Below, piece after piece: positions 4,892-63,412 of a DNA stretch of 64,000 nucleotides. The DNA lies in NCBI RefSeq assembly GCF_003721565.1, contig NZ_RJJE01000002.1:186001-250000 (forward strand), written 5' to 3'. Both the position numbers and the translations under genes were made by a program. This DNA comes from Rufibacter immobilis. GTDB lineage: Bacteria > Bacteroidota > Bacteroidia > Cytophagales > Hymenobacteraceae. Within the stretch, counting starts at the first letter, position 1; each line of letters begins with the position of its first letter. Under the pieces are notes generated by a model. That model made no database searches. It saw nothing but the letters and a program-made list of their open reading frames with translations, and was not told where the DNA came from.

Positions 4892-4930
4892 CTGTTTTTG
4901 GCCTAATTCCGGAAAAAGAGCCGCTAAACG
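4892..4930 (-). repeat. GCGTTTAG palindrome, half-decayed copy
   Basis: Reverse orientation: conserved arm GGAAAAAGAGCCGCTAAACG on the right, decayed arm TGTTTTTGGCCTAATTCC on the left. Faces the copy at 5058-5094. Confidence 0.8.
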
Positions 4931-5057: not shown

Positions 5058-5094
5058 CGTTTAGCGGCTCTTTTTCCGGAAACTGAGCCAAACC
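5058..5094 (+). repeat. GCGTTTAG palindrome, half-decayed copy
   Basis: Conserved arm CGTTTAGCGGCTCTTTTTCC followed by decayed GGAAACTGAGCCAAACC. Ends 4 bp before the permease stop codon, on its 3' side. Confidence 0.85.
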
Positions 5095-5098
5095 AGCT

Positions 5099-7000: not shown

Positions 7001-7038
7001 CGTTTAGGGGCTATTTTTCTGAAAATAGCCCCTAAACG
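7001..7038. repeat. GCGTTTAG palindrome, near-perfect copy
   Basis: CGTTTAGGGGCTATTTTT and complement around a CTG centre, with TTTTG/TAAA extending the stem outside. Lies 30 bp after the methyltransferase stop (7069) and 80 bp before the GNAT start. Confidence 0.9.
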
Positions 7039-9913: not shown

Positions 9914-9953
9914 GCGTTTAGGAGCCATTTTAAGAAAAAAAGCCGCTAAACGC
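9914..9953. repeat. GCGTTTAG palindrome copy
   Basis: GCGTTTAGGAGCCATTTT ... AAAAAGCCGCTAAACGC, 31 bp after the stop codon of the 8473 gene; some mismatches in the middle of the stem. Confidence 0.85.
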
Positions 9954-10661: not shown

Positions 10662-10701
10662 GCGTTTAGGGGCCGCTTTTCCAAAAACAGCCCCTAAACG
10701 C
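10662..10701. repeat. GCGTTTAG palindrome, near-perfect copy
   Basis: GCGTTTAGGGGCCGCTTTT ... AACAGCCCCTAAACGC; the stem extends outward with AATT/AATT. Lies 25 bp past the rpiB stop. Confidence 0.9.
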
Positions 10702-13402: not shown

Positions 13403-13440
13403 GCGTTTAGGGGCTCTTTTTCCTAAATAAAGCAAAAACC
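13403..13440 (+). repeat. GCGTTTAG palindrome, half-decayed copy
   Basis: Conserved arm GCGTTTAGGGGCTCTTTTTCC, then TAAATAAAGCAAAAACC. It lies about 90 bp upstream of glyA, and its decayed end merges with the left arm of the terminator at 13434. Confidence 0.85.
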
Positions 13441-13464
13441 CCCAGGGTGCGCCTGGGGGTTTTT
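13434..13464. terminator. Bidirectional intrinsic terminator
   Basis: AAAAACCCCCAGG, loop GTGCG, CCTGGGGGTTTTT: a perfect 13-bp stem with T-tracts on both strands. It ends 22 bp beyond the stop of the T9SS protein gene (13487), which it should terminate. Confidence 0.9.
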
Positions 13465-16458: not shown

Positions 16459-19400
16459 CTATTTTTTTACCACTCTTGTAGTTGTTGTTTGACCGTTCAG
16501 TTCAGTAGATAAGATGTACATTCCTGCGCCAATTGAAGCAGTGTTTACTGGTAGCTCAATGGTGGATATGCCGCTCTCTACATTGAATGAGCGCTCAAAA
16601 GCTTTCTTACCTGTAACGTAATAGAGAACCACGTTCAGTTGGCCAGCTTGTTCAGCTGTCACCTCAATAGTTAGGTTACTTCTGTCGTCAAACGGGTTTG
16701 GATAAACAGTAACTGGTGTTGCAGCTGGAGTAGCAGCAGCAGCAGTGCGTGCTACCGCAATAGTTTTGCTGTATTCTACAGAACCATCTAAATCTACCTG
16801 TTTCAGGCGGTAATAAGTAGTAGTGCTCTTGGCTGGAGTACGGTCTTCTATTTCATAGGAGGTCAAAGAAGAACTGTTAGTTACTTTGCTTTCTACGCGT
16901 TTAACCGTCTTGAATTCCTCTCTCTTTGGATTAGCGCTTGCCTGTACTTCAAAATAGGCGTTGTTCTTTTCTGTAGCGGTTTTCCAGCTCAGCATAACAG
17001 CGTTAGAAGCAGGCGTTGCTGTGAAGTCTACCAGTTCTACTGGCAAGGTGGTGGTTAGAACGAAGAAGTTCATTTCTGCAGTTCCTCCAGCCGTTTTCAC
17101 AATGATTGGCCCTTCTGTGGCGGCTTCAGGCACAATGGTAACTAAGCCTTCTGCAGTTTCTTCAAATTGTGCAGGAGTGTTTTTGAAGGATACGGAGAGA
17201 ACTCTGCTTAAGTCTGTGCCTGTGATGGTCACCACTGTTCCGGCCGGACCAGCGTTAGGTTCAACATTGTTGATCACTGGGGCAGGCACAATCATGGTAA
17301 ACTTAGAGTCTGTTTCAGTTAGTCCATATTCTCCGTCCACGGCAATGAAGTCAGTGGCTGCATCGGCTGGTACGGTAGCTCTTACTTCATTCTCGCTAAT
17401 GAACTCGTAGTTGTCTGCGTAGATATAATTGCCAGAGGCGTCCTTGAAGTACACGTTGCCGTCTACCCAGAAGTTAGCACCTGTGATGGTCACCACTGTG
17501 CCCGCAGGGCCAAACTTAGGAGAGAAATCTGTGATGATTGGAGTTGGAACCGTTACGGTAAAGTTAGTTTGTGCAGCGCCTCCTGCTGTGGTAACTATCA
17601 TGTTGCCTGAGACTGCTCCCTCTGGAACGATCACGATTAAATTGTTCTCGTCTGTGTCATCATATTCCGTGGCAAGAGTTCCACCAAAGGTGATGCTTTG
17701 GATCCCTTTTAGGTTAGAGCCTTGTACATAAACGATTGTTCCTACAGGGCCTGCGTTAGGGTCAACAGTGGCGATTACTGGTGCAGGAACCGTTACAGTG
17801 AATTTGGTGGCAGTTTCAGTAAGTCCAGACTCTCCGTCCACGGCAATAAAGTCTGATGCCGCATCGGCTGGAACAGTGGCTCTTACCTCAGTGGTGCTCA
17901 CGTACTCGTAGTTGTCTGCGTAGATGTATTCACCTGACGCATCCTTGAAGTACACATTGCCGTCTACCCAGAAGTTGGAGCCAGTAATGGTGACCACTGT
18001 GCCCACTGGGCCAGACTTAGGAGAGAAATCTGTGATGATTGGAGCTGAGATAACGGTAAAAACAGCTATGCTGGTAGTGGTCTGCGAAAAGTTGTTATAA
18101 GATAACTTCACAGTTCCTGTAGCAGCGCCTGCTGGCACTGTGGCGGTTAATGTGTTGTCATCTACTACCGTATAGGTGGCTGTTTTTCCGTTTTCAAAGA
18201 TAACGCTTGTGGTGTTTACCAGATTGGAACCCTTGATCAAAATGGTGTTTCCTACCGCTGCCGCGTTAGGCTCAAAGCTGCTGATAGTAGGCGGAAGAAG
18301 AACTCCTGTTCCTGAAAGGTTAATGGAATAAGGGTTCTCATTGGCGTCATTATTGGCAATTAAGATGTTCGCAGTTTTGGCCGATACTGAAGTTGGCTTA
18401 AACGCTACCTCAAAGGTAGACGAACCGCCGGCTGGGATGGAAGCATCTGGTTGCTTCGTGATCTGAAACTGGTTTGCATCTGTGCCTCTTAAAGCCAACG
18501 GGGTGGTTAGGGTAAGAGGTACATTGCCCGTGTTGTGGATAGTGAAAGTAAAAGGAGCGCTGGTGGTGTTGATGTTGCGTTCCCCAAAGGCTTGGGCGGA
18601 GCTGCCTCCCTGAGAGTTGCTGCCAGGAGTTACATCAATTTCTGGAGCTTGCACTGTAAAGGAAGCAGTACTGGTTGAACTTTGAGAGTTGTTATTGTAC
18701 GTAAGCTTCACTAGTCCGGAAACAGCACCGGCGGGTACTGTGGCCGTGAGGGTATTGTCGTCCAGTACTTTAGGAACTACGGTTTTATTACTTTCAAAAA
18801 CTACGTTGTTCGTATTGGTCAGATTAGAGCCTTTGATCGTAATGGTAGTACCCACCGAAGCCGCATTGGGTTCAAAGCTGCTGATGGTAGGGGCAAGAAG
18901 GACACCTTTCCCGGTTAAGTTAATTGTATAAGGATTCTCAGTGGCATCATCATTAATGATGCTGATTGTTGCGGTCTTGGTAAGTACTGAAGTGGGTTTA
19001 AACGCTACCTCAAAGGTAGACGAACCGCCGGCTGGGATGGAAGCATCTGGCTGCTTCGTAATTTGGAACTGGCTCGGGTCTGTACCACTTATCGTAATTG
19101 GAGTAGTAACTGATAAAGCTGCAGGGCCAGTATTCTGGATAGTAAAGGTAACCGGAGCACTAACTACATTCAGGTTCTGATCTGCAAAAGTATAAGAAGA
19201 ACTGCCTCCCTGTGCACTGCTGCCTGGGATGACATTGATCTCAGGAGCAGATGGTGGTGGTGGAGTAGCTTCTGCAATACTTACTCGGTCAATCAATACA
19301 GCGCCATTGGTTTGTAGGTTTGTGGCTAATCTAAGTCTCACAAACTTCGTACTTGGTTTAATATTGACTTTTTTCTCTTCACCGTCACCGCTTGAGTTTA

Positions 19401-21016: not shown

Positions 21017-21054
21017 CCGTTTAGGGGCCGTTTTTCCAGAATTAGCTCTAAACC
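21017..21054 (+). repeat. GCGTTTAG palindrome, half-decayed copy
   Basis: CCGTTTAGGGGCCGTTTTTCC then AGAATTAGCTCTAAACC. Between the phosphatase start (20981) and the terminator of the next minus-strand gene. Confidence 0.85.
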
Positions 21055-21059
21055 AGCCA

Positions 21060-22759: not shown

Positions 22760-22800
22760 ACGTTTAGCGGCTGTTTTTCTGAAAACAGAGTAAAAACACG
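22760..22800 (+). repeat. GCGTTTAG palindrome, half-decayed copy
   Basis: ACGTTTAGCGGCTGTTTTTC then TGAAAACAGAGTAAAAACACG. It lies between the divergent SDR and pterin dehydratase genes, 33 bp before the latter start. Confidence 0.8.
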
Positions 22801-23081: not shown

Positions 23082-23118
23082 GCGTTTAGCGCCTCTTTTT
23101 CCTAAAACAAGGCCAAAC
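23082..23118 (+). repeat. GCGTTTAG palindrome, half-decayed copy
   Basis: GCGTTTAGCGCCTCTTTTTCC then TAAAACAAGGCCAAAC. 4 bp after the phhB stop and 51 bp before the rsmI promoter. Confidence 0.85.
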
Positions 23119-23168
23119 TGGAAATCAATTCAAACCCCAAGACTCAGAACTCAGGACTAAATAATTAG

Positions 23169-25499: not shown

Positions 25500-25539
25500 G
25501 CGTTTAGCGCCTGTTTTTGCAAAAACAGGCGCTAAACGC
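25500..25539. repeat. GCGTTTAG palindrome, perfect copy
   Basis: GCGTTTAGCGCCTGTTTTTG and its exact complement: 40 bp with no mismatch. 20 bp after the lnt stop codon. Confidence 0.95.
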
Positions 25540-26544: not shown

Positions 26545-26600
26545 GGGCCTTTCCGTTTAGGGGCTGTTTTTGGAAAAAGAGGCCCTAAACGGGAAGGCCC
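26545..26600. repeat. GCGTTTAG palindrome with extended stem
   Basis: Core 26553-26592 plus outer arms GGGCCTTTCCG / CGGGAAGGCCC (26545-26555, 26590-26600; one mismatch). The outer part is not shared with other copies. Starts 9 bp after the phosphatase stop. Confidence 0.9.
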
Positions 26601-26872: not shown

Positions 26873-26905
26873 AAAAGCCATTCTACCCAGAATGGCTTTT
26901 TCTTT
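26873..26905 (+). terminator. Intrinsic terminator
   Basis: AAAAGCCATTCT, loop ACCC, AGAATGGCTTTTT: 12-bp stem then T-tract, 27 bp after the small gene. The palindrome copy follows immediately. Confidence 0.92.
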
Positions 26906-26951
26906 TGCGTTTAGGGGCTGTTTTTGGAAAAAGAGCCCCTAAACGCAAAAG
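26902..26951. repeat. GCGTTTAG palindrome, near-perfect copy
   Basis: Core 26907-26946 with outer CTTTT/AAAAG pairs; one G-G mismatch in the stem. It follows directly on an ordinary terminator, so termination there does not need it. Confidence 0.93.
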
Positions 26952-29617: not shown

Positions 29618-29656
29618 GTGTTTAGAGCCTCTTTTTTCAAAAGTAAGCAAAAAACG
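29618..29656 (+). repeat. GCGTTTAG palindrome, half-decayed copy
   Basis: TGTTTAGAGCCTCTTTTTT then CAAAAGTAAGCAAAAAACG. Ends right at the TlpA-protein stop codon and lies 23 bp before the radical SAM start. Confidence 0.8.
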
Positions 29657-32665: not shown

Positions 32666-32705
32666 CCGTTTAGCGGCTCTTTTTCTAAAAATAAGCTAAA
32701 AACGC
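32666..32705 (+). repeat. GCGTTTAG palindrome, half-decayed copy
   Basis: CCGTTTAGCGGCTCTTTTTC then TAAAAATAAGCTAAAAACGC. It lies between the divergent radA and the lipoprotein gene at 32779, 73 bp before the latter. Confidence 0.85.
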
Positions 32706-34366: not shown

Positions 34367-34405
34367 GGCGTTTAGCAGCTCTTTTTCCGGAAACAGGGCA
34401 AAAAC
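34367..34405 (+). repeat. GCGTTTAG palindrome, half-decayed copy
   Basis: GGCGTTTAGCAGCTCTTTTT then CCGGAAACAGGGCAAAAAC. 2 bp after the previous stop and 8 bp before the next promoter box. Confidence 0.85.
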
Positions 34406-34413
34406 AGAATTGG

Positions 34414-35910: not shown

Positions 35911-35950
35911 GCGTTTAGGGGCTGTTTTTGGAAAAAGAGCCTCTAAACGC
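35911..35950. repeat. GCGTTTAG palindrome, near-perfect copy
   Basis: GCGTTTAGGGGCTGTTTTTG ... GAAAAAGAGCCTCTAAACGC, 38 bp after the methyltransferase stop. Confidence 0.93.
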
Positions 35951-36019: not shown

Positions 36020-36092
36020 GTAGGGGCAATCCCTTGTGGTTGCCCTAACGCGGTGGAATACGTAAAGGGCAACCACAAGGGATTGCCCCTAC
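36020..36092. repeat. 27-bp perfect inverted repeat
   Basis: GTAGGGGCAATCCCTTGTGG + TTGCCCT (36020-36046) and its exact complement (36066-36092), 19-bp loop. This sequence resembles a hairpin repeat I know from many bacterial genomes, thought to be non-autonomous and IS200/RAYT-related. Confidence 0.8.
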
Positions 36093-36153: not shown

Positions 36154-36192
36154 CATTTTAACTGTTTTTCTCCAAAAACAGCCCCTAAACAG
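36154..36192 (-). repeat. GCGTTTAG palindrome, half-decayed copy
   Basis: Reverse orientation: CATTTTAACTGTTTTTCT then CCAAAAACAGCCCCTAAACA. Confidence 0.8.
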
Positions 36193-38607: not shown

Positions 38608-38647
38608 GCGTTTAGGGGCTGTTTTTCCAAAAACAGCCCCTAAACGC
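38608..38647. repeat. GCGTTTAG palindrome, perfect copy
   Basis: GCGTTTAGGGGCTGTTTTT, CC, and the exact complement: 19-bp stem. 33 bp after the dipeptidase stop. Confidence 0.95.
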
Positions 38648-38798: not shown

Positions 38799-41570
38799 AT
38801 GCTTTCTAAGACTAAAGTTGTCGCTAGCCTAGTGACAGTACTTCTTTTAGCGGCCCTAGTCTCGTTTGCTCCTAAGGCTTGGCAAGGCGGAATGCTGGAG
38901 AAAATTACCTCTAAACTTACCTTCTTTGAGAACAACTATCCGCAGGAAAAAGTCTTTCTACATTTAGACAAGCCTTATTACGCCGCCGGCGATGATGTGT
39001 GGTTCAGCGCCTATCTGGTAAACAGTTCAGACCACGCCCCTAGTCCCTTGAGTAAGGTGCTGTATGTAGAGTTGGTAAACCCGGAAGACTCAATTGCCCA
39101 GCGGGTAGTGCTTAATATGCAAGAAGGCAAAGGGTTTGGAGACTTTACCTTGCCAGACAGTATTCAAGCGGGCCTTTACCGCGTGAGAGCCTATACCAGC
39201 TGGATGCAGAACTTTCATGAAGATTATTTCTTCCACCAGAACATTCAGATTTGGAACCCTAGAGAAAGCGATTTGACACCCGCTGCCAATTTTTCCTTCA
39301 AACGTCAAGGGAGTGGGGATTCAGTTATAGTAGACCTACAGCTACTGACCCCTAAAAAAACTCTGGCTCCGCCGACGGCTATCACTTATACTGTATTGCA
39401 GGGGGCGAAAAGAGCAGCTTCCAGAAAGCTCAATACCAGCCCTACGGGTAAGACTAAATTGCGCTTTTATCTGCCAGACGCAGGTGACAATCAAGTAGCC
39501 CAGCTACAGCTTTCCATCCCGCAGGGGCAGAAGACAGTAAAAAAGAAGCTTGTCGTTCCAAGATCAGGCAGCGCCCTTGATCTTCAGTTTTTCCCCGAAG
39601 GAGGGAATTTAGTGAGCGGTTTCTGGAACAATATAGGATTTAAAGCTACCAATGCACAGGGGTTGGGCGAAGACGTGAAGGGAGTGGTGGTAGATCAGAG
39701 TGGGGCTAAAGTGGCAGATCTCACTAGCCTTAAGTTTGGGATGGGCCGCATTGGGTTCATGCCTGAAAAAGGCAAGCGCTATGAAGCAAAGATCAAAGGG
39801 GCAGACGGCAGTGAAACTACATATTCCTTGCCACCGGCGCAGGATAAGGGTATAATCATGACCGTAGACAATTCAAAGCCTGATAAAGTGCGGGTAAAAT
39901 GCTATACTATAGGTTTTGCAGATGGAGCCGGAAAGCCGACGGCTTTGCATGTAGTAGCCCAATCAAGAGGTACAGCCTTCTTTGGTGCCAGCAGTACTAC
40001 CGGCCGAGATGTATTTCAGGCAGATATCCCAAAGGAGAAGTTCCCTACCGGTATTTCACAAATCACTCTCTTTGATCAAGCAGGTGAACCGTTGGCCGAA
40101 CGGCTAGTCTTTGTGAATCAAAACAAGAACCTCCAGATAACCATTACGCCAGATAAGCCTACCTATAAGCCCAGGGAGAAAGTGACCCTTCAGGTAGAGG
40201 TAAAAGACGCTGCAGGAAGTCCGGTGGCCGGTAACTTTTCAATGAGCGTCACAGATGGGCAAACGGTGGTGCCTGACGCCAACAGCGCTACGCTTATCTC
40301 TTACCTGCAGTTATCTTCAGACCTGAGAGGATACATAGAGCAGCCAGACTTTTACTTCTCAGCTACCCAAGAGGAGGCGCAGACAGCACTTGATAACCTA
40401 ATGCTCACTCAGGGCTGGCGCCGGTTTGTCTGGAAAGACATTCTGCAAGATAAGTTTCAGGCTATGCCCGCCCCTTTGGAGCAGGGTTTATCAGTAAGTG
40501 GAGTAGTCACTCAGTACAATGAAAAAAAGCCTGTGAAAGATGCGGTGGTGACTATGTTTGATGTGGCTAATATGAAGAATATTCTGTTTGGGAATACAGA
40601 TGCGCAAGGACGATTCTCTATTGCATTGCCCACCCTCAAAGACAGCTCCCGGGTAGTGCTGCAGGCCCGTAACCCCAAAGGCAAAAGCAATCTCATTGTC
40701 TCCTTAGAGGATCCTGCTCCCGCGCTGGTGAAGCCTCAGGTGCCTTATGGTACCGTAGCTGCTTCCCTTTCTGACCAACAATGGGCATACCTGCGCAATA
40801 ACCAGGAGCAGATGAAAGTAGACCAGTCCATGGGCAAGGGCGTGCTGTTGGGAGAGGTAGTGGTGAAAGGCAGAAAAGACCCGTATGCGAACAAAAGCAT
40901 TGCCGACCGAACCACCTTGCACTCTCCCGGTGATGTGAGTTACTCCGTAAGAGGGGATAGATTTCCGCCGGGGTTAGACATTATCTCAGCGCTGCCGGGC
41001 CGTACACCGGGGGTGCAAATGAAGGAGGGAAAGTTGGTGCTGAGGGGCGGTGTGACCCAGTCATTTGATTTTGGCGGGGAAGGTGGCGCCAGCGAGGGAG
41101 GATCAACCGAGCCCATGTATCTGATAGATGGTGTGCGGGCAGACATGGGATTAGCCCAAACTCTTGATCCCACCCAGGTAGAGCGGATAGATGTCCTCAT
41201 GCCTGGAGCGCCTTCTGCTATTTACGGGGGAGAAGGAGTGAACGGGGTGATCTCTATCATTATGAAAGTTCCTGGTTCCTTTGTGGCTAAAACCAATGCA
41301 AGATGGCAAGGTGTAGCCATTTATAGAGGACCAAAGTTCCAGACCGTACGCGAGTTCTACATGCCCAAATATGACAAGCCCTCAAAAGAGTTTACTCCTG
41401 ACTGGAGAAGCACGCTGTACTGGAACCCAGTGATCAAAACCAATGCCGAGGGCAAAGCTCAAGTCGCCTTCTATTGTGCAGACGCTAAAACAACTTACCG
41501 TGCCGTGGTGCAAGGCTTAACTTCTAAAGGGCTGTTAGGCAAAGGAGTCACGGCAATGCAAGTACGGTAG
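38799..41570 (+). CDS. MG2 domain plus TonB-plug protein, copy 1
   Basis: A 923-residue exported protein. Signal helix VVASLVTVLLLAALVSFAP; macroglobulin-type MG2 domain with NNYPQEKVFLHLDKPYYAAGD (about 45-65) and YRVRAYTSWMQNF; several further Ig-like domains; a TonB receptor plug domain (about 720-830: DIISALPGRTPGVQMKEG ... PMYLIDGVRADMG ... GAPSAIYGGEGVNGVISII); a last Ig-like domain. No 22-strand barrel follows the plug. It is probably an envelope-anchored partner of an outer-membrane system. Role unknown. Upstream 130 bp is AT-rich. Confidence 0.85.
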   Translation: MLSKTKVVASLVTVLLLAALVSFAPKAWQGGMLEKITSKLTFFENNYPQEKVFLHLDKPYYAAGDDVWFSAYLVNSSDHAPSPLSKVLYVELVNPEDSIAQRVVLNMQEGKGFGDFTLPDSIQAGLYRVRAYTSWMQNFHEDYFFHQNIQIWNPRESDLTPAANFSFKRQGSGDSVIVDLQLLTPKKTLAPPTAITYTVLQGAKRAASRKLNTSPTGKTKLRFYLPDAGDNQVAQLQLSIPQGQKTVKKKLVVPRSGSALDLQFFPEGGNLVSGFWNNIGFKATNAQGLGEDVKGVVVDQSGAKVADLTSLKFGMGRIGFMPEKGKRYEAKIKGADGSETTYSLPPAQDKGIIMTVDNSKPDKVRVKCYTIGFADGAGKPTALHVVAQSRGTAFFGASSTTGRDVFQADIPKEKFPTGISQITLFDQAGEPLAERLVFVNQNKNLQITITPDKPTYKPREKVTLQVEVKDAAGSPVAGNFSMSVTDGQTVVPDANSATLISYLQLSSDLRGYIEQPDFYFSATQEEAQTALDNLMLTQGWRRFVWKDILQDKFQAMPAPLEQGLSVSGVVTQYNEKKPVKDAVVTMFDVANMKNILFGNTDAQGRFSIALPTLKDSSRVVLQARNPKGKSNLIVSLEDPAPALVKPQVPYGTVAASLSDQQWAYLRNNQEQMKVDQSMGKGVLLGEVVVKGRKDPYANKSIADRTTLHSPGDVSYSVRGDRFPPGLDIISALPGRTPGVQMKEGKLVLRGGVTQSFDFGGEGGASEGGSTEPMYLIDGVRADMGLAQTLDPTQVERIDVLMPGAPSAIYGGEGVNGVISIIMKVPGSFVAKTNARWQGVAIYRGPKFQTVREFYMPKYDKPSKEFTPDWRSTLYWNPVIKTNAEGKAQVAFYCADAKTTYRAVVQGLTSKGLLGKGVTAMQVR

Positions 41571-41653
41571 ACTTCCTATAGGCGGATTAGGTTAAACGCA
41601 TGAAAGGCATGATCTGCTTTATTGTTTTTAGAGCAGAACAACCTATAATAAGT

Positions 41654-41696
41654 ATATCCCTCAGGCTGCTTTTTTAAGGAATATTCTGAGGGATAT
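41654..41696. other. Hairpin between paralogous genes
   Basis: ATATCCCTCAG (41654-41664) and CTGAGGGATAT (41686-41696), 11-bp perfect stem with a 21-base loop containing T6. It may be a weak terminator or a regulator of the second paralogue. Confidence 0.55.
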
Positions 41697-41780
41697 CCTT
41701 CCATCCTTTCTACAAGCAGCTACTACTTGAGTTCTGCCTAGGCACATAGGTGTTAATCTTGAATCTTCAAATAATTTATA

Positions 41781-44483
41781 ATGATAATGGCCGGTAGAAA
41801 TAAGTTACTCTTATTAGTAGGGGTATGTGTGTTAACGGCATTTAGCTTCATCTCTAAAGGATTCAGAGATGAAGCAATGCTGCAGAAGGTGCTGGCCAAA
41901 CTCACAGCCTACACGGCTAATTATCCGCAGGAGAAAGTGTACCTGCACCTGGACAAACCCTATTACGCCGCCGGCGAAGATGTCTGGTTCAAAGCCTATC
42001 TGGTCAATGCCGACAACCATGCCCCCAGCCTTCTGAGTCAGGTGATGTACGTAGACCTCATCAACCAGGAAGATTCACTCTTTAGCCGCTTGGCGGTGAA
42101 TGTGAAGAACGGCGTGGGGCACGGAGATTTTGCGCTGCCAGACACCATCCCGGCGGGGCAGTACCGCCTGCGGGCCTACACCAGCTGGATGCAGAATTTT
42201 GGGCAGGACTATTTCTTCCACCGGAACCTGCAGATCTTCAACCCCAGAGTAGATGACATGGTGGTAGTCCCTACGTACAGCTACAAGCGCCAAGGCTCCG
42301 GAGATTCTGTCTTGGTGAACCTGAGCCTCAAGAACCTGTGGGAGGAGCTACTGGCCCAGGTGCCGCTTTCCTACAGCCTGCAAACAAGCCGTAAAACCTC
42401 TGGCAGACGCAAAGGAGTCACAAACGCCGCCGGGGAAACACAGCTTCGGTTTTACCTGCCAGACGGGGAAAACCGGCAGCAGGCCCAGATTCTGTTAACA
42501 GTTAACCAAGACAAGCAAAGTGTGCAGAAAAGGATTCCGGTACCAGGCGCAACCCAGAAAGTAGACCTGCAATTCTTTCCCGAAGGCGGGGAACTGGTCA
42601 ACGGCATGTGGAGCGTCGTTGGTTTCAAGGCCATAGCTGCCAATGGGCTAGGCAGAGACGTGCAGGGGGAGGTCTATGACAATACAGGGGCAAAAGTAAC
42701 CAGTTTCAAGAGTCTGAAATGGGGCATGGGGCGCTTTGGGTTTCTACCCCAGAAAGGAAAACAGTACCACGCCCGCCTCCTAAACACAGATGGCGCCATA
42801 AAAGAATATCCGTTGCCCGTAGCGCGGGAGAAAGGGGTAATACTGACGGTGAACAGCGCGCAGCCAGACGTGGTGCAACTCAAAGCATTCATAGTGGGGT
42901 ATGCCGGCGGAGACGGCAGGCCGGAAGCTGTGAGTATTGTAGGCCAGAGCCGGGGCACTGTCTATTTCACTGCGTATACCACTACCGCCAAAGACCTTCT
43001 GCTGATCAACGTGCCCAAACGCAAGCTACCTACTGGAATCACGCAGTTTACCCTGTTCTCCAGTACCGGGGAGCCCCTGGCGGAACGTCTGGTTTTTGTC
43101 AATCATCAAGACCAACTGCGGCTAACGGTCACGGCAGATAAACCCAGCTACAAATCTCGTGAGAAAGTAACCATGCAGGTACAGGCCGCAGACACGGCCG
43201 GTCGGCCAGTGGTAGGGCATTTTTCTGTGGCCGTCACAGATGCCCAGAAAGTGATGCCAGAGCCGTACGCTCCTACCCTGCTTTCCAATCTGCTGCTCAC
43301 CTCAGATTTGCGTGGCCACGTAGAACATCCCGGCTATTATTTCTCGGCCAAAGACCCTGAAGCTCCCCAAGCCTTGGATAACCTCATGCTTACGCAAGGC
43401 TGGCGCCGGTTCACGTGGAAAGACGTTCTGGAGGATAAGCAACCCAATCTCACCTATCCGCTGGAGCGTGGTTTGGCTGTAAGCGGCACCGTCTTGAAGC
43501 TGTCCGGTAAACCAGAGCCGTACGCCATTGTGACGTTAATTAGTATGCGCCCGCCCAGCCTGATTTTACTGGACACCGCCGATGCGCAAGGCAAATTCGC
43601 GTTTGGGGTCTCTTCTTTGGATGACAGTGCCCGCATAGTGGTACAGGCCCGTAACGCCAAAGGCAAGAGCAATTTGGAAGTAGTACTGGACAAGCATGTG
43701 CCTATCATGCCCATTGCGCCACTGCCGTACTTCTTGCCGCCAAGCCTGCTGTCGCAGACGCAGTGGGCTTATTTGCGCGGCAACCGCGAGCAGTTGCGGT
43801 TAGACCAGCTTTCCGGGAAGAGCATCTTGTTGAGTGCGGTAGAAATTAGGGCGAAGAAACTGCAGGAAGAAGAGCGCATGTCTAGAGGGCTGTACAGCCA
43901 CGCAGACCATACCCTCAAAGCCGAAAGTTTGCCTCCCGGAACAGATGTGATCTCCGCACTGTCGGGCAGGGTGGCCGGACTGATGGTAAGGGGCGACAAC
44001 GTTTCCATGCGTGGTGCCGGCCCGCCGCTCTTTTTAGTAGACGGAATGCCCATAGACATAGACTTTGTGCGCAATCTGTCCATGGTAGAAGTAGAAACCA
44101 TTGACATTCTCAAACCCGGGGCGTCTTCCGCTATTTACGGTTCTCAGGGAGGCAACGGGGTAATTGCCATCAACCTGAAGAGAGGCAGCTCCGGGGGGGC
44201 AGCCTCCAGTACCCGTTACCAAGGGGTAGCCGCGTACAAAGGCATCCGTTCCCAGACCCCAAGGCAATTCTACGTACCGGCGTATACCAAACCCGAAGAA
44301 GCAGAACTGCCTGACCTGCGCACTACTTTGTATTGGAACCCAACCGTACAGACAGATGCCACTGGCAAGGCAAGTTTCACGTTCTTTGCCGCAGACGCTA
44401 AGACCAGTTATAGGACCATTTTAGAAGGAGTGAGTACCAAAGGGCAATTAGGCCGCGCCGAGGCAGAGGTGTTGGTGAAGTAG
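41781..44483 (+). CDS. MG2 domain plus TonB-plug protein, copy 2
   Basis: A 900-residue paralogue of the preceding gene: NYPQEKVYLHLDKPYYAAGE, YRLRAYTSWMQNF, LNLMLTQGWRRF-type segment (ALDNLMLTQGWRRFTWKDVL) and the plug PPGTDVISALSGRVAGLMVR, FLVDGMPIDID, GASSAIYGSQGGNGVIAINL are in the same order. This copy is more GC-rich than copy 1, so the duplication is old or one copy came from another source. Signal peptide LLLVGVCVLTAFSFIS. Again no barrel. 210 bp separate the two. Confidence 0.85.
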   Translation: MIMAGRNKLLLLVGVCVLTAFSFISKGFRDEAMLQKVLAKLTAYTANYPQEKVYLHLDKPYYAAGEDVWFKAYLVNADNHAPSLLSQVMYVDLINQEDSLFSRLAVNVKNGVGHGDFALPDTIPAGQYRLRAYTSWMQNFGQDYFFHRNLQIFNPRVDDMVVVPTYSYKRQGSGDSVLVNLSLKNLWEELLAQVPLSYSLQTSRKTSGRRKGVTNAAGETQLRFYLPDGENRQQAQILLTVNQDKQSVQKRIPVPGATQKVDLQFFPEGGELVNGMWSVVGFKAIAANGLGRDVQGEVYDNTGAKVTSFKSLKWGMGRFGFLPQKGKQYHARLLNTDGAIKEYPLPVAREKGVILTVNSAQPDVVQLKAFIVGYAGGDGRPEAVSIVGQSRGTVYFTAYTTTAKDLLLINVPKRKLPTGITQFTLFSSTGEPLAERLVFVNHQDQLRLTVTADKPSYKSREKVTMQVQAADTAGRPVVGHFSVAVTDAQKVMPEPYAPTLLSNLLLTSDLRGHVEHPGYYFSAKDPEAPQALDNLMLTQGWRRFTWKDVLEDKQPNLTYPLERGLAVSGTVLKLSGKPEPYAIVTLISMRPPSLILLDTADAQGKFAFGVSSLDDSARIVVQARNAKGKSNLEVVLDKHVPIMPIAPLPYFLPPSLLSQTQWAYLRGNREQLRLDQLSGKSILLSAVEIRAKKLQEEERMSRGLYSHADHTLKAESLPPGTDVISALSGRVAGLMVRGDNVSMRGAGPPLFLVDGMPIDIDFVRNLSMVEVETIDILKPGASSAIYGSQGGNGVIAINLKRGSSGGAASSTRYQGVAAYKGIRSQTPRQFYVPAYTKPEEAELPDLRTTLYWNPTVQTDATGKASFTFFAADAKTSYRTILEGVSTKGQLGRAEAEVLVK

Positions 44484-45730: not shown

Positions 45731-45768
45731 GCGTTTAGCGGCTCTTTTTCCAAAATAAGGCCTAAACC
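45731..45768 (+). repeat. GCGTTTAG palindrome, half-decayed copy
   Basis: GCGTTTAGCGGCTCTTTTTCC then AAAATAAGGCCTAAACC. 32 bp before the beta-helix lipoprotein start. Confidence 0.87.
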
Positions 45769-45799
45769 GGAAACTGGTATTTAACTTAATTAGTACGCC

Positions 45800-47663: not shown

Positions 47664-47690
47664 AAATCCATCCATTTCCTTCCGGAATAG

Positions 47691-47740
47691 TTTTTGCGTT
47701 TAGGGGCCGTTTTTGGAAAAAGAGCCCCTAAACGCAAAAA
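47691..47740. repeat. GCGTTTAG palindrome with extended stem
   Basis: Core 47696-47735 with flanks TTTTT/AAAAA extending the stem by 5 bp. It sits between two convergent genes, 27 bp after YjbQ. Confidence 0.92.
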
Positions 47741-47773
47741 CCGCTTCTCCTCAAAGACGGGTTAAAGCTCGGG

Positions 47774-50486: not shown

Positions 50487-50508
50487 GCGGCAGTGGGCAC
50501 GGTAACTT

Positions 50509-50548
50509 GCGTTTAGCGGCTCTTTTTTGAAAAACAGGCCCTAAACAG
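50509..50548. repeat. GCGTTTAG palindrome copy
   Basis: GCGTTTAGCGGCTCTTTTTT then GAAAAACAGGCCCTAAACAG. Between two convergent genes, 23 bp after the monooxygenase stop. Confidence 0.88.
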
Positions 50549-50583
50549 AAAACCAGAAGAATCACCTTAGGGCTAATGCTTTC

Positions 50584-51229: not shown

Positions 51230-51268
51230 GCGTTTAGAGCCTATTTTACGGAAAACAGATGAAAAACG
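51230..51268 (+). repeat. GCGTTTAG palindrome, half-decayed copy
   Basis: GCGTTTAGAGCCTATTTTAC then GGAAAACAGATGAAAAACG. The decayed end is shared with the left arm of the gpmI terminator. Confidence 0.8.
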
Positions 51269-55146: not shown

Positions 55147-55446
55147 ATGATAAAAAATACTCTTTCCGTTTTCGCCGTGGCCGGTGCCCTTTTGCTGGCT
55201 TCTTGCAGCAGCGAGCCGTCTGACCTGCGTCCTGAGGTAAAAGTTACTACAGATTCCGTTCCTCCAGGAATGCGCAACAACACGTCTAACATTGACAACG
55301 GCAACGCCGAAGAAGCGGTGGCCCGTGAAGACGTGCAGGTAAACCATGATGAGCACGAGAACGCCACCAAGCCTGGCGCTGAGAAAGGGGTTGTTGACCC
55401 AGCTCAGAAAGCCAACACCAAAGAAGTGGTAGAAAACCACGAGTAA
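55147..55446 (+). CDS. Small lipoprotein
   Basis: A 99-residue lipoprotein: signal helix SVFAVAGALLLASC (Cys20), then a hydrophilic, mostly disordered mature part (NSNIDNGNAEEAVARE-like, rich in Asn, Asp, Glu). Not recognised. It is followed 10 bp later by a palindrome copy whose stem is extended. Confidence 0.75.
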   Translation: MIKNTLSVFAVAGALLLASCSSEPSDLRPEVKVTTDSVPPGMRNNTSNIDNGNAEEAVAREDVQVNHDEHENATKPGAEKGVVDPAQKANTKEVVENHE

Positions 55447-55456
55447 TCACCTCTGG

Positions 55457-55510
55457 CCAAAGCCCGTTTAGGGGCTGTTTTTCCAAAAACAGCCCCTAAA
55501 CGGGCTTTGG
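55457..55510. repeat. GCGTTTAG palindrome, perfect 26-bp stem
   Basis: CCAAAGCCCGTTTAGGGGCT + GTTTTT, CC, exact complement. The CCAAAG/CTTTGG outer part is found only in this copy. Confidence 0.95.
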
Positions 55511-55526
55511 CTTACCTTTTATTTTC

Positions 55527-55766
55527 ATGAAAAAGACTTTCTATACCTGGGCGTTGGCGTTAACGGCCCTGGCCACTGTCTCTTCCTGCAATAGTTCTTC
55601 CACCGCTGAGCAGCCCGCCACTTCTGCCCAGCAAATGGCGTACATATGCCCCATGGAGTGCGAAGGCAGTGCCAGCATGCAGCCGGGCAAGTGCCCCGTA
55701 TGCGGCATGGACTTAGAGAAGAATCCTAAGTTCCAGGCATCGGCAGACAGTACTACCACTTTATAG
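55527..55766 (+). CDS. Heavy-metal-binding domain lipoprotein
   Basis: A 79-residue lipoprotein: lipobox VSSC (Cys21), then YICPMECEGSASMQPGKCPV followed by CGMDLEKNPK, a heavy-metal-binding domain (HMBD) with the CPM..GKCPVCGM pattern usually fused to CusB-type or copper ATPase proteins. As a free lipoprotein it may sequester copper or another metal. It sits three genes before a ZIP transporter. Confidence 0.88.
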   Translation: MKKTFYTWALALTALATVSSCNSSSTAEQPATSAQQMAYICPMECEGSASMQPGKCPVCGMDLEKNPKFQASADSTTTL

Positions 55767-56568: not shown

Positions 56569-57363
56569 ATGATAGTAGCGGTTTCCGTTCTATTCTTTAC
56601 TGTATTGCTGGCGGGGTGGCTGGTGCGTTTTCTGCCTCAGAACAACCAGCGGTGGCTTAAATTGCTGTTGGCCTTTAGTGGCGCCTACCTGTTTGCGCTC
56701 ACCATCCTGCACATTTTGCCAGATGTGCTCCTGAGCACCCAAGACCCACACCGGGTAGGCTTTTACATTCTGGCGGGTTTCTTCCTGCAGCTGGTGCTGG
56801 AGGTTTTTTCCCACGGGGTGGAGCACGGGCACATCCACGCGCACCCGCAGGGACACCATCACCACCACCAAGGCATTGGCGCCGTTCCGGTGCTGCTGCT
56901 CACCTCCCTGGTGATCCATTCTTTTCTGGAGGGCAGCGTGATGGTGCAGAGCCGTATGGCCGCCCAGCAAGCGCATGAGCATTTACACAGCCACGCCCAC
57001 ACTCATGTGGGGGATAATTTTTACCATATTCTGGCTGGTATTGCGTTGCACCACATCCCGGCGGCCATCGCGCTCATGTCGGTGTTGGTGGAGCGGCTGC
57101 ATAGTTTCAAGAAAGCCTTTGGGTACCTGCTCCTGTTCGCTTTGGCCTCGCCTTTGGGGCTTTTGTTCAGCAATTACGTAGCCTTGGAGAAACTTCTTTC
57201 CGGCGAAGCCTACACTGTTTTATCTGGTCTAGTGGTAGGGAACTTCCTGCACATCTCCACCACCATCTTGTTTGAAACCAGCCCGGAACACCGCTTCAAC
57301 CGGGGCAAACTGCTGGCCACCATAGCCGGGGCCTTGATCGCCATTGGCGCGGGCATGCTGTAG
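56569..57363 (+). CDS. ZIP family metal transporter
   Basis: A 264-residue polytopic protein importing Zn2+ (or related divalent ions) into the cytoplasm. Helices carry the ZIP signature: LTILHILPDVLLSTQD (about 44-59), TSLVIHSFLEGSVM with metal His and Glu (about 110-123), ILAGIALHHIPAAIALMSVL (about 160-179). A His-rich loop between them (HGHIHAHPQGHHHHHQG; HLHSHAHTHVGD) is usual for metal sensing. It lies 3 bp after the methyltransferase. Confidence 0.94.
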   Translation: MIVAVSVLFFTVLLAGWLVRFLPQNNQRWLKLLLAFSGAYLFALTILHILPDVLLSTQDPHRVGFYILAGFFLQLVLEVFSHGVEHGHIHAHPQGHHHHHQGIGAVPVLLLTSLVIHSFLEGSVMVQSRMAAQQAHEHLHSHAHTHVGDNFYHILAGIALHHIPAAIALMSVLVERLHSFKKAFGYLLLFALASPLGLLFSNYVALEKLLSGEAYTVLSGLVVGNFLHISTTILFETSPEHRFNRGKLLATIAGALIAIGAGML

Positions 57364-57390: not shown

Positions 57391-57457
57391 AGCCGAGGAT
57401 GCGTTTAGCGCCTGTTTTCAGAAAAACGGGCGCTAAACGCACCCTCGGCTTTTTCTT
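57391..57457 (+). terminator. Terminator with GCGTTTAG palindrome nested in its stem
   Basis: GCCGAGG (57392-57398) ... CCTCGGC (57443-57449) then TTTTTCTTT: an ordinary terminator outer stem, but the interior is palindrome copy 57401-57440. Acts for the ZIP gene. Confidence 0.85.
57401..57440. repeat. GCGTTTAG palindrome, near-perfect copy
   Basis: GCGTTTAGCGCCTGTTTT ... ACGGGCGCTAAACGC. Lies within the outer stem of the terminator at 57391. Confidence 0.93.
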
Positions 57458-58246: not shown

Positions 58247-58286
58247 GCGTTTAGCGGCTCTTTTTCCAAAAACAGGCGCTAAACGC
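58247..58286. repeat. GCGTTTAG palindrome, near-perfect copy
   Basis: GCGTTTAGCGGCTCTTTTTCC then AAAAACAGGCGCTAAACGC, 38 bp after the DUF2939 stop. Confidence 0.93.
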
Positions 58287-59161: not shown

Positions 59162-59200
59162 ACGTTTAGGGGCGCTTTTTGGAAAAACGGCTCCTAAACA
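59162..59200. repeat. GCGTTTAG palindrome copy
   Basis: ACGTTTAGGGGCGCTTTTTGG then AAAAACGGCTCCTAAACA. Between convergent purU and dgt, 21 bp past purU, 2 bp before dgt end. Confidence 0.88.
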
Positions 59201-60642: not shown

Positions 60643-60682
60643 GCGTTTAGGGGCTGTTTTTCCAAAAACAGCCCCTAAACGC
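60643..60682. repeat. GCGTTTAG palindrome, perfect copy
   Basis: GCGTTTAGGGGCTGTTTTT, CC, and the exact complement, 4 bp from the stop of the metzincin gene (60687). It is identical to the copy at 38608. Confidence 0.95.
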
Positions 60683-63373: not shown

Positions 63374-63412
63374 GCGTTTAGCGGCTCTTTTTCCAGAATT
63401 GAGGTAAAAACG
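63374..63412 (+). repeat. GCGTTTAG palindrome, half-decayed copy
   Basis: GCGTTTAGCGGCTCTTTTTCC then AGAATTGAGGTAAAAACG, 55 bp before the prolyl oligopeptidase promoter box. Confidence 0.87.

Follow-up and report, generated by a model that had tools for sequence, protein, structure and literature searches.

A genus-limited family of intergenic inverted repeats in Rufibacter probably joins a shared DNA dyad to gene-specific terminator stems

The stretch of DNA analyzed here (the window; 64,000 nucleotides [nt] of the Rufibacter immobilis genome, hereafter G000) carries a long hairpin between two reading frames. Its arms (55456 to 55482 and 55485 to 55511) are 27 nt each, 100% complementary, and 2 nt apart, confirming the perfect stem that an earlier sequence-only reading had placed at 55457 with a length of 26 nt. 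The upstream frame (55270 to 55446) ends with a TAA stop codon at 55444 to 55446, and the hairpin begins 9 nt later; an ATG at 55527, 15 nt beyond the hairpin end at 55511, starts a 79-codon frame. This downstream frame (55527 to 55766), which was missed by our gene-calling script, has a lipoprotein-like start and a CPMEC..CPVCGM motif, and we take its product to be of the heavy-metal-binding type. Within the hairpin, a 38-nt palindromic core (55465 to 55502) reads CGTTTAGGGGCTGTTTTT-CC-AAAAACAGCCCCTAAACG, with both arms in the G000 form, or dialect. Outside the core are 9 more pairs, formed by a left flank arm at the hairpin base (GCCAAAGCC, 55456 to 55464, plus strand) and a right flank arm (GGCTTTGGC, 55503 to 55511, plus strand), each a 9-nt paired run. 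The predicted fold of positions 55448 to 55520 has an energy of −51.6 kcal/mol (z = −11.0). We located this gap in 14 of the 16 genomes of the genus; all 14 have the 38-nt geometry and paired flanks, with differing core sequences.

Cores of the same family recur throughout the window. Arm search and folding identified one at 26554 to 26591 within a hairpin spanning 26545 to 26600, where the outer-arm pairing previously proposed at 26545 holds over 9 positions, one of them a G·T wobble. The flank pairing proposed at 47691 stands less firmly: arm search and folding place a core at 47697 to 47734 with GTTTTTG/CAAAAAC flanks (47690 to 47741), but this is the weakest of the three examples because its core-adjacent TTG/CAA pairs belong to a weak consensus present next to the core in 55 to 65% of both-arm copies. 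The core at 57402 to 57439 is embedded in a stem that resembles a terminator, AGCCGAGG..CCTCGGCT, with TTTTT after it (57391 to 57450), downstream of a gene (56605 to 57363) that presumably encodes a ZIP-like transporter, and arm search found a core at 26908 to 26945 with CTTTTG/CAAAAG flanks (26902 to 26951). Further cores with both arms in the G000 form lie at 1804 to 1841 (core-adjacent flank positions unpaired), 7001 to 7038, 9915 to 9952, 10663 to 10700 (flanks AATTG/CAATT), 25501 to 25538, 35912 to 35949, 38609 to 38646, 50510 to 50547, 58248 to 58285, 59163 to 59200, and 60644 to 60681. Elements with a single G000-form arm are found on the plus strand at 5058 to 5095, 13404 to 13441, 21018 to 21055, 22761 to 22798, 23083 to 23120, 29619 to 29656, 32667 to 32704, 34369 to 34406, 45732 to 45769, 51231 to 51268, and 63375 to 63412 and on the minus strand at 4893 to 4930 and 36154 to 36191. 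In the divergent gap containing the element at 22761, the non-dialect arm GAAAACAGAGTAAAAACA (22781 to 22798) is followed by CGGAG in the flank beyond; this arm is near-identical in most of the congeners shown while the other arm differs, and it is possibly a separate regulatory site.

The window also contains repeats of other kinds. A perfect 27-nt inverted repeat with a 19-nt loop at 36020 to 36092 is unlike the family core. One long reading frame contains pairs of 300-nt direct repeats with 77 to 80% identity, separated by 501 and 600 nt (17231 to 18031 and 18192 to 19091), and two adjacent long genes at 38799 to 44483 represent a gene duplication, with stretches 73 to 84% alike at a spacing of 2,982 to 2,985 nt. 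No Rfam model matched the window at its gathering score.

Across the 4.77-Mb G000 genome, the half-motif CGTTTAGNGGCTNTTTTT has 1,293 exact matches (673 + 620; reversed control, 0), and the spacing between the two ends is fixed, with 118 pairs at one distance and 1 at another. A 704-kb sample of the genome contains 323 elements (reversed sequence, 0), 9 of them within called genes; five tiny contigs (201 to 1,115 nt) without the motif were excluded from later counts. By arms, 157 elements are both-arm (P type), 151 are one-arm (A type), and 15 are generic; in A-type elements the second arm keeps a looser form, similar to the motif of the relatives. The sequence CGTTTAGNGGC occurs 4 times in 541,497 coding nt (reversed control, 1) versus 322 times in 141,186 intergenic nt. 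Among gaps of at least 60 nt in the sample, elements are present in 58 of the 68 between convergent genes, 152 of the 272 between co-directional genes, and 32 of the 73 between divergent genes; genes were called with our own codon-usage script, which makes these contexts approximate, and small genes may be concealed in some "divergent" gaps. A replication-strand motif of the KOPS or Chi type was considered and rejected, as one-arm copies on the sampled part of contig C1 (GC skew negative in all seven bins) number 64 forward and 74 reverse, with no clear bias.

We compared flank pairing with a chance level obtained by permuting right flanks among copies (2,000 permutations). Both-arm copies in the 704-kb sample (n = 155) have paired flank runs of at least 5, 7, 9, and 12 nt in 45, 26, 18, and 7 cases, respectively, against permuted means of 2.3, 0.29, 0.12, and 0.04 and permuted maxima of 8, 3, 3, and 1. 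One-arm copies (n = 150) have no excess, with 1 run of at least 5 nt against a mean of 0.62. The possibility that flanks pair merely at the rate expected by chance is thereby ruled out for both-arm copies, whereas one-arm copies do sit at that level. The excess is also seen among copies picked by sequence, blind to pairing, in a within-genome permutation that did not use our pairing-rewarding element score: flank z values reach 8.3 in G000 (224 copies), 4.6 in G048, G017, and G022 together (135 copies), and 4.8 in 12 other genomes (191 copies). Long flanks are present on 35 of the 154 both-arm copies of G000; counted across all 16 genomes, 128 of 679 elements have them.

The flanks were then aligned across orthologous gaps, requiring a best 38-mer score of at least 36 for each relative's row, which retained 15 of 16 rows at 57402 (including a G045 row that represents an element elsewhere in the gap), 8 of 9 at L036:1738, and 14 of 14 at 55465. 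Covariation of the flanks, proposed earlier as a check, was found: double changes keep the flanks paired at these three sites, which were chosen for their pairing among 16 P sites with at least four rows. The flank covariation score is 0.83 at L036:1738 (8 genomes; 0.30 shuffled, ≤0.32 slid) and 0.65 at 57402 (15 genomes; 0.25 shuffled, ≤0.31 slid). Flank sequences at 57402 and L036:1738 are widely different between genomes, yet 80% and 92% of cells, respectively, are paired. Double changes affect 5 of 8 flank pairs at 55465 (14 genomes) and 8 of 8 at 57402, although sliding by +3 leaves the latter count at 8 of 8, which makes it uninformative; such counts are not independent events because the species are related. 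Pooling 21 P sites gave 112 relatives' copies (159 gaps) with flank pairing above permutation, e.g., 0.58 versus 0.25 paired at the third flank position, with the rows of relatives shared between the two G000 elements at 9915 and 10663, which lie in one gap. The 71 relatives' copies (125 gaps) at 15 pooled A sites showed no flank pairing above permutation, and at several of the other P sites (e.g., 35912, 38609, L036:5816, and L036:10887) the relatives' flanks pair little. As to whether pairing precedes the repeat, at the sites compared it precedes the G000 form, the relatives being paired around another core.

The distribution of long flanks depends on gene orientation. Of the elements in the 16 genomes, those with long flanks number 63 of 180 in convergent gaps, 58 of 388 in co-directional gaps, and 5 of 84 in divergent gaps (P = 1e−7 for convergent versus divergent; P = 0.03 for co-directional versus divergent). 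Long-flank hairpins in co-directional gaps have a T-tract downstream in 16 of 58 cases versus upstream in 4 of 58 (P = 0.006), and T-tracts lie beside long-flank hairpins on 43 of 126 sides in convergent gaps and 0 of 10 in divergent gaps; the element score underlying these orientation and T-tract counts rewards core pairing. Short-flank co-directional copies also have a downstream T-tract excess, albeit a smaller one (44 versus 26 of 330; P = 0.03), and the T-tract is therefore shared by both flank classes. A TTTT tail follows just 16 of the 58 co-directional hairpins with long flanks, so that under the classical rule many of them would count as weak terminators. Mismatches within the flanks comprise 25 G·T and 13 A·C (P = 0.07), against 95 and 15 in simple terminators as a positive control; this G·T excess is only suggestive as a sign of RNA pairing. 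A separate simple terminator shares the gap with the element in 16 of 58 convergent and 21 of 147 co-directional cases. Judging from these sequence patterns, the flanks are most likely gene-specific intrinsic-terminator stems under selection for pairing.

The sequence-only reading had offered a second explanation, in which the local flank is copied in inverted form. Template switching at the palindrome could do this, and the pairing is indeed often perfect, contiguous, and confined to foldable copies, and the core shows little strand asymmetry. However, mutation alone would not account for pairing that depends on gene orientation, nor does it fit the polarity of the T-tracts. At 55465, moreover, the flank arms are recognizably the same sequence in 14 of 14 genomes, with 3 of the 8 pairs unchanged throughout and pairing in 95.5% of cells, rather than one arm having been freshly copied from its partner. 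These observations do not require inverted copying, and we regard it as an improbable origin of the flank pairing, in which template switching may still act as a helper.

The core behaves differently from the flanks. In 388 co-directional elements, core mismatches comprise 425 G·T and 378 A·C (P = 0.10), against 95 and 15 in 179 simple terminators from the same genomes, and the two arms are almost uncoupled within copies: core positions in G000 stay close to what permutation gives (z = −1.2 to 1.8), with positions 8 (z = 3.3) and 12 (z = 2.4) as exceptions, and coupling is likewise nearly absent in G048, G017, and G022. Several A sites combine one arm in the G000 form with a second, relatives-like arm (43 relatives' rows passed the filter); that other arm has 0 to 2 of 18 differences in the 6 relatives compared at 22761 to 22798, 1 to 3 of 18 in 6 at 29619 to 29656, and 1 to 2 of 18 in 5 of 6 at 51231 to 51268, in a comparison that was anchored on this other arm and is biased toward low difference in it. 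The lack of a clear G·U bias in the core, the uncoupled arms, and the mixed arms at A sites together point to half-sites that are read as DNA. The proposal of RNA-structure selection thus fares differently in the two parts of the hairpin: double changes at the three chosen sites, location at gene 3′ ends, and the exit-side T-tract favor it for the flanks, and the mismatch and coupling results leave it unsupported for the shared core.

The whole hairpin, core included, might nevertheless be a single RNA element (a terminator or 3′-end stabilizer) selected for pairing, which we consider unlikely. The four both-arm copies tested fold very stably (z = −6.9 to −11.0), convergent gaps are occupied at the high frequency given above, and two sites show covariation of core pairs from genome to genome. 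Core pairs also covary within copies in the 12 relatives without a strong dialect (positions 3, 5 to 7, and 14; z = 2.5 to 5.9), so the core is not a purely fixed motif everywhere, and in these relatives core symmetry itself seems to be kept. Such selection would leave unexplained the mismatch pattern and uncoupled arms described above, as well as the 151 of 323 elements whose single G000-form arm pairs poorly with its partner; the one-arm copy tested (45732 to 45769) has no stable fold (z = +0.16), and A-type elements in co-directional gaps have no transcription polarity (47 versus 44). The core instead looks, from sequence comparison, like a pair of 18-nt DNA half-sites in inverted orientation, with a dialect that is species specific.

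The family is limited to Rufibacter, inside which Sabulibacter ruber is nested. A generic 38-nt pattern allowing up to 2 mismatches has 50 to 1,346 matches per genome in 16 of 16 genomes of the genus and 3 matches in 3 of 134 genomes from five other genera of the family; the reversed control is more frequent in the latter set (10 matches in 9 genomes), placing those matches at chance level. Loci from Pontibacter and Hymenobacter (151 kb) contain no element, against 28 in Rufibacter-group loci (75 kb), and downstream of one conserved gene 12 of 13 congeners have an element scoring 36 or more, with every one of the 16 sister-genus loci scoring under 29. The core is homogeneous in G000, whose form is nearly private (1,293 exact half-motifs versus 0 to 38 in the 15 congeners); G048 has its own homogeneous form, and G017 and G022 have another in common. 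Elements nonetheless occupy largely the same gaps: by the pairing-rewarding score, relatives carry an element in 201 of 263 gaps whose G000 counterpart has one and in 16 of 163 whose counterpart lacks one, against 0 of 263 in shuffled sequence (score of at least 34); at a score of at least 36 the counts are 170 of 263 and 11 of 163. The core dyad is therefore genus limited and largely stable in place, with a sequence that differs between species at the same sites. We found no description of such an element from Rufibacter in the open-access literature in PMC, and one may exist elsewhere; the 2025 RepRanger paper makes no mention of Rufibacter in its main text.

Stability in place bears on whether the core is a mobile hairpin of the REP type, inserted into the loops of terminators. 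Its position at the apex of terminator-like stems and its high copy number are in favor of this, and the element at 50510 is missing from seven relatives, whose gap is tiny. The sharing of gaps across the genus runs counter to mobility, as does the site at 55465, where species have different core sequences, each of exactly 38 nt, between retained flanks, and G017 has 953 copies of the generic pattern with no match to a Y1 transposase. On balance, insertion of this kind is doubtful, at about the same low level as template switching. The convergent gap at 50487 to 50583 records a gain or loss event: G000 and G012 each have an element there, and seven congeners have gaps of 9 to 36 nt without one; as an empty-site proof of insertion we rejected it, the gaps being too diverged for a target-duplication search.

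We infer that the element probably has two layers, a shared DNA dyad and a gene-specific terminator stem outside it. The first is a 38-bp dyad of inverted 18-nt half-sites (CGTTTAGNGGCTNTTTTT in this species) 2 bp apart, genus-wide, almost exclusively intergenic, and found in largely the same gaps across species with a species-specific sequence; it would be the probable site of a putative dimeric, sequence-specific DNA-binding factor. The second, in about a fifth to a quarter of copies, is a gene-specific inverted repeat directly outside the core, a predicted intrinsic-terminator stem with the palindromic core as its apex, acting two ways between convergent genes and one way in co-directional gaps. 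Being kept by selection on RNA pairing, it would vary in sequence by gene and species while pairing stays. More tentatively, the family could be a genus-wide punctuation of gene ends, in which the putative factor reads hundreds to more than 1,000 inverted half-sites per genome, the factor and its sites having co-evolved in place toward species dialects and the terminator stems evolving separately; the factor is possibly a transcription roadblock or a chromosome organizer. Arm permutation, together with the G·T versus A·C comparison and its positive control, separates two forces on one hairpin, copy-specific pairing outside the core and shared sequence inside it. A high-copy motif whose sequence changes from one species to the next within shared gaps offers a natural experiment in dialect change, here outside the bacteria known for uptake sequences, and the element family predicts a DNA-binding factor.

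Among known systems, intrinsic (Rho-independent) terminators resemble the long-flank stems in their location at gene 3′ ends, exit-side T-tract excess, and two-way arrangement in convergent gaps, but here a 38-nt palindromic core of near-constant length replaces the short loop. REP, BIME, and REPIN sequences associated with RAYTs are, in the passages cited, likewise small intergenic palindromes present in hundreds of copies and persistent within lineages (PMC3733652, PMC6006769), and our elements are high copy, extragenic, and palindromic. Unlike them, the Rufibacter elements occupy gaps common to several species, have longer symmetric arms, and need no Y1 transposase, as G017 illustrates. REPs are defined, in the relevant part of one account, by an unpaired GTAG or CGTC tetranucleotide tag at one end (PMC3733652); this tag is absent from our consensus, whose ends are paired CG..CG with TTG/CAA outside. 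The Y1 transposase family PF01797 was found in 15 of the 16 genomes of the genus and 0 times in G017, and we ruled out REP/RAYT membership on the basis of the missing tag and of G017. Around Y1 transposase genes (10 loci) there are 0 to 3 elements per ∼3.3 kb, with no consistent flanking. The sole Y1-type (RAYT-like) match in G000 at the threshold used (contig C1, 452724 to 452942; L127) has generic and dialect elements within ∼1.1 kb.

DNA uptake sequences offer the remaining comparison. Could the half-motif be an uptake-type sequence with dialects, co-opted as inverted terminator pairs as in Neisseria? We consider this very improbable, even though G000 has more than 1,000 half-motifs, the species have dialects, single and inverted-pair arrangements occur with a link to terminators, and a ComEC-family gene is present; the ∼1,000 or more copies with dialects match what uptake sequences display, with lower numbers in several congeners (generic pattern, 50 to 1,346). 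There is no clear build-up in coding DNA, given the 4 coding matches in 541 kb against 1 in the reversed control, and the best match in G000 to the type IV pilus/type II secretion ATPase (PF00437) scores 19.8 bits, below the cutoff of 24.9; on these two tests a typical uptake sequence (DUS or USS) was rejected. The coding-DNA test is weakened because, according to the section cited, the majority of Neisseria uptake sequences are intergenic as well (PMC2397512); intragenic copies are called common in Neisseria in a passage of another account (PMC3630211). Unlike the Neisseria and Pasteurellaceae pairs, the Rufibacter elements have an 18-nt half-motif, a fixed 2-nt spacing, and almost no presence in coding DNA. 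The inverted uptake-sequence pairs in Neisseria terminators are still the closest counterpart, with a strikingly similar organization: in the portions of the literature cited, the pairs of Neisseria and Pasteurellaceae, like the elements described here, involve a high-copy short motif with a DNA-level role of its own (a probable one in Rufibacter) and species dialects, and they form terminator stems enriched between convergent genes (PMC1852404, PMC3630211, PMC2397512).
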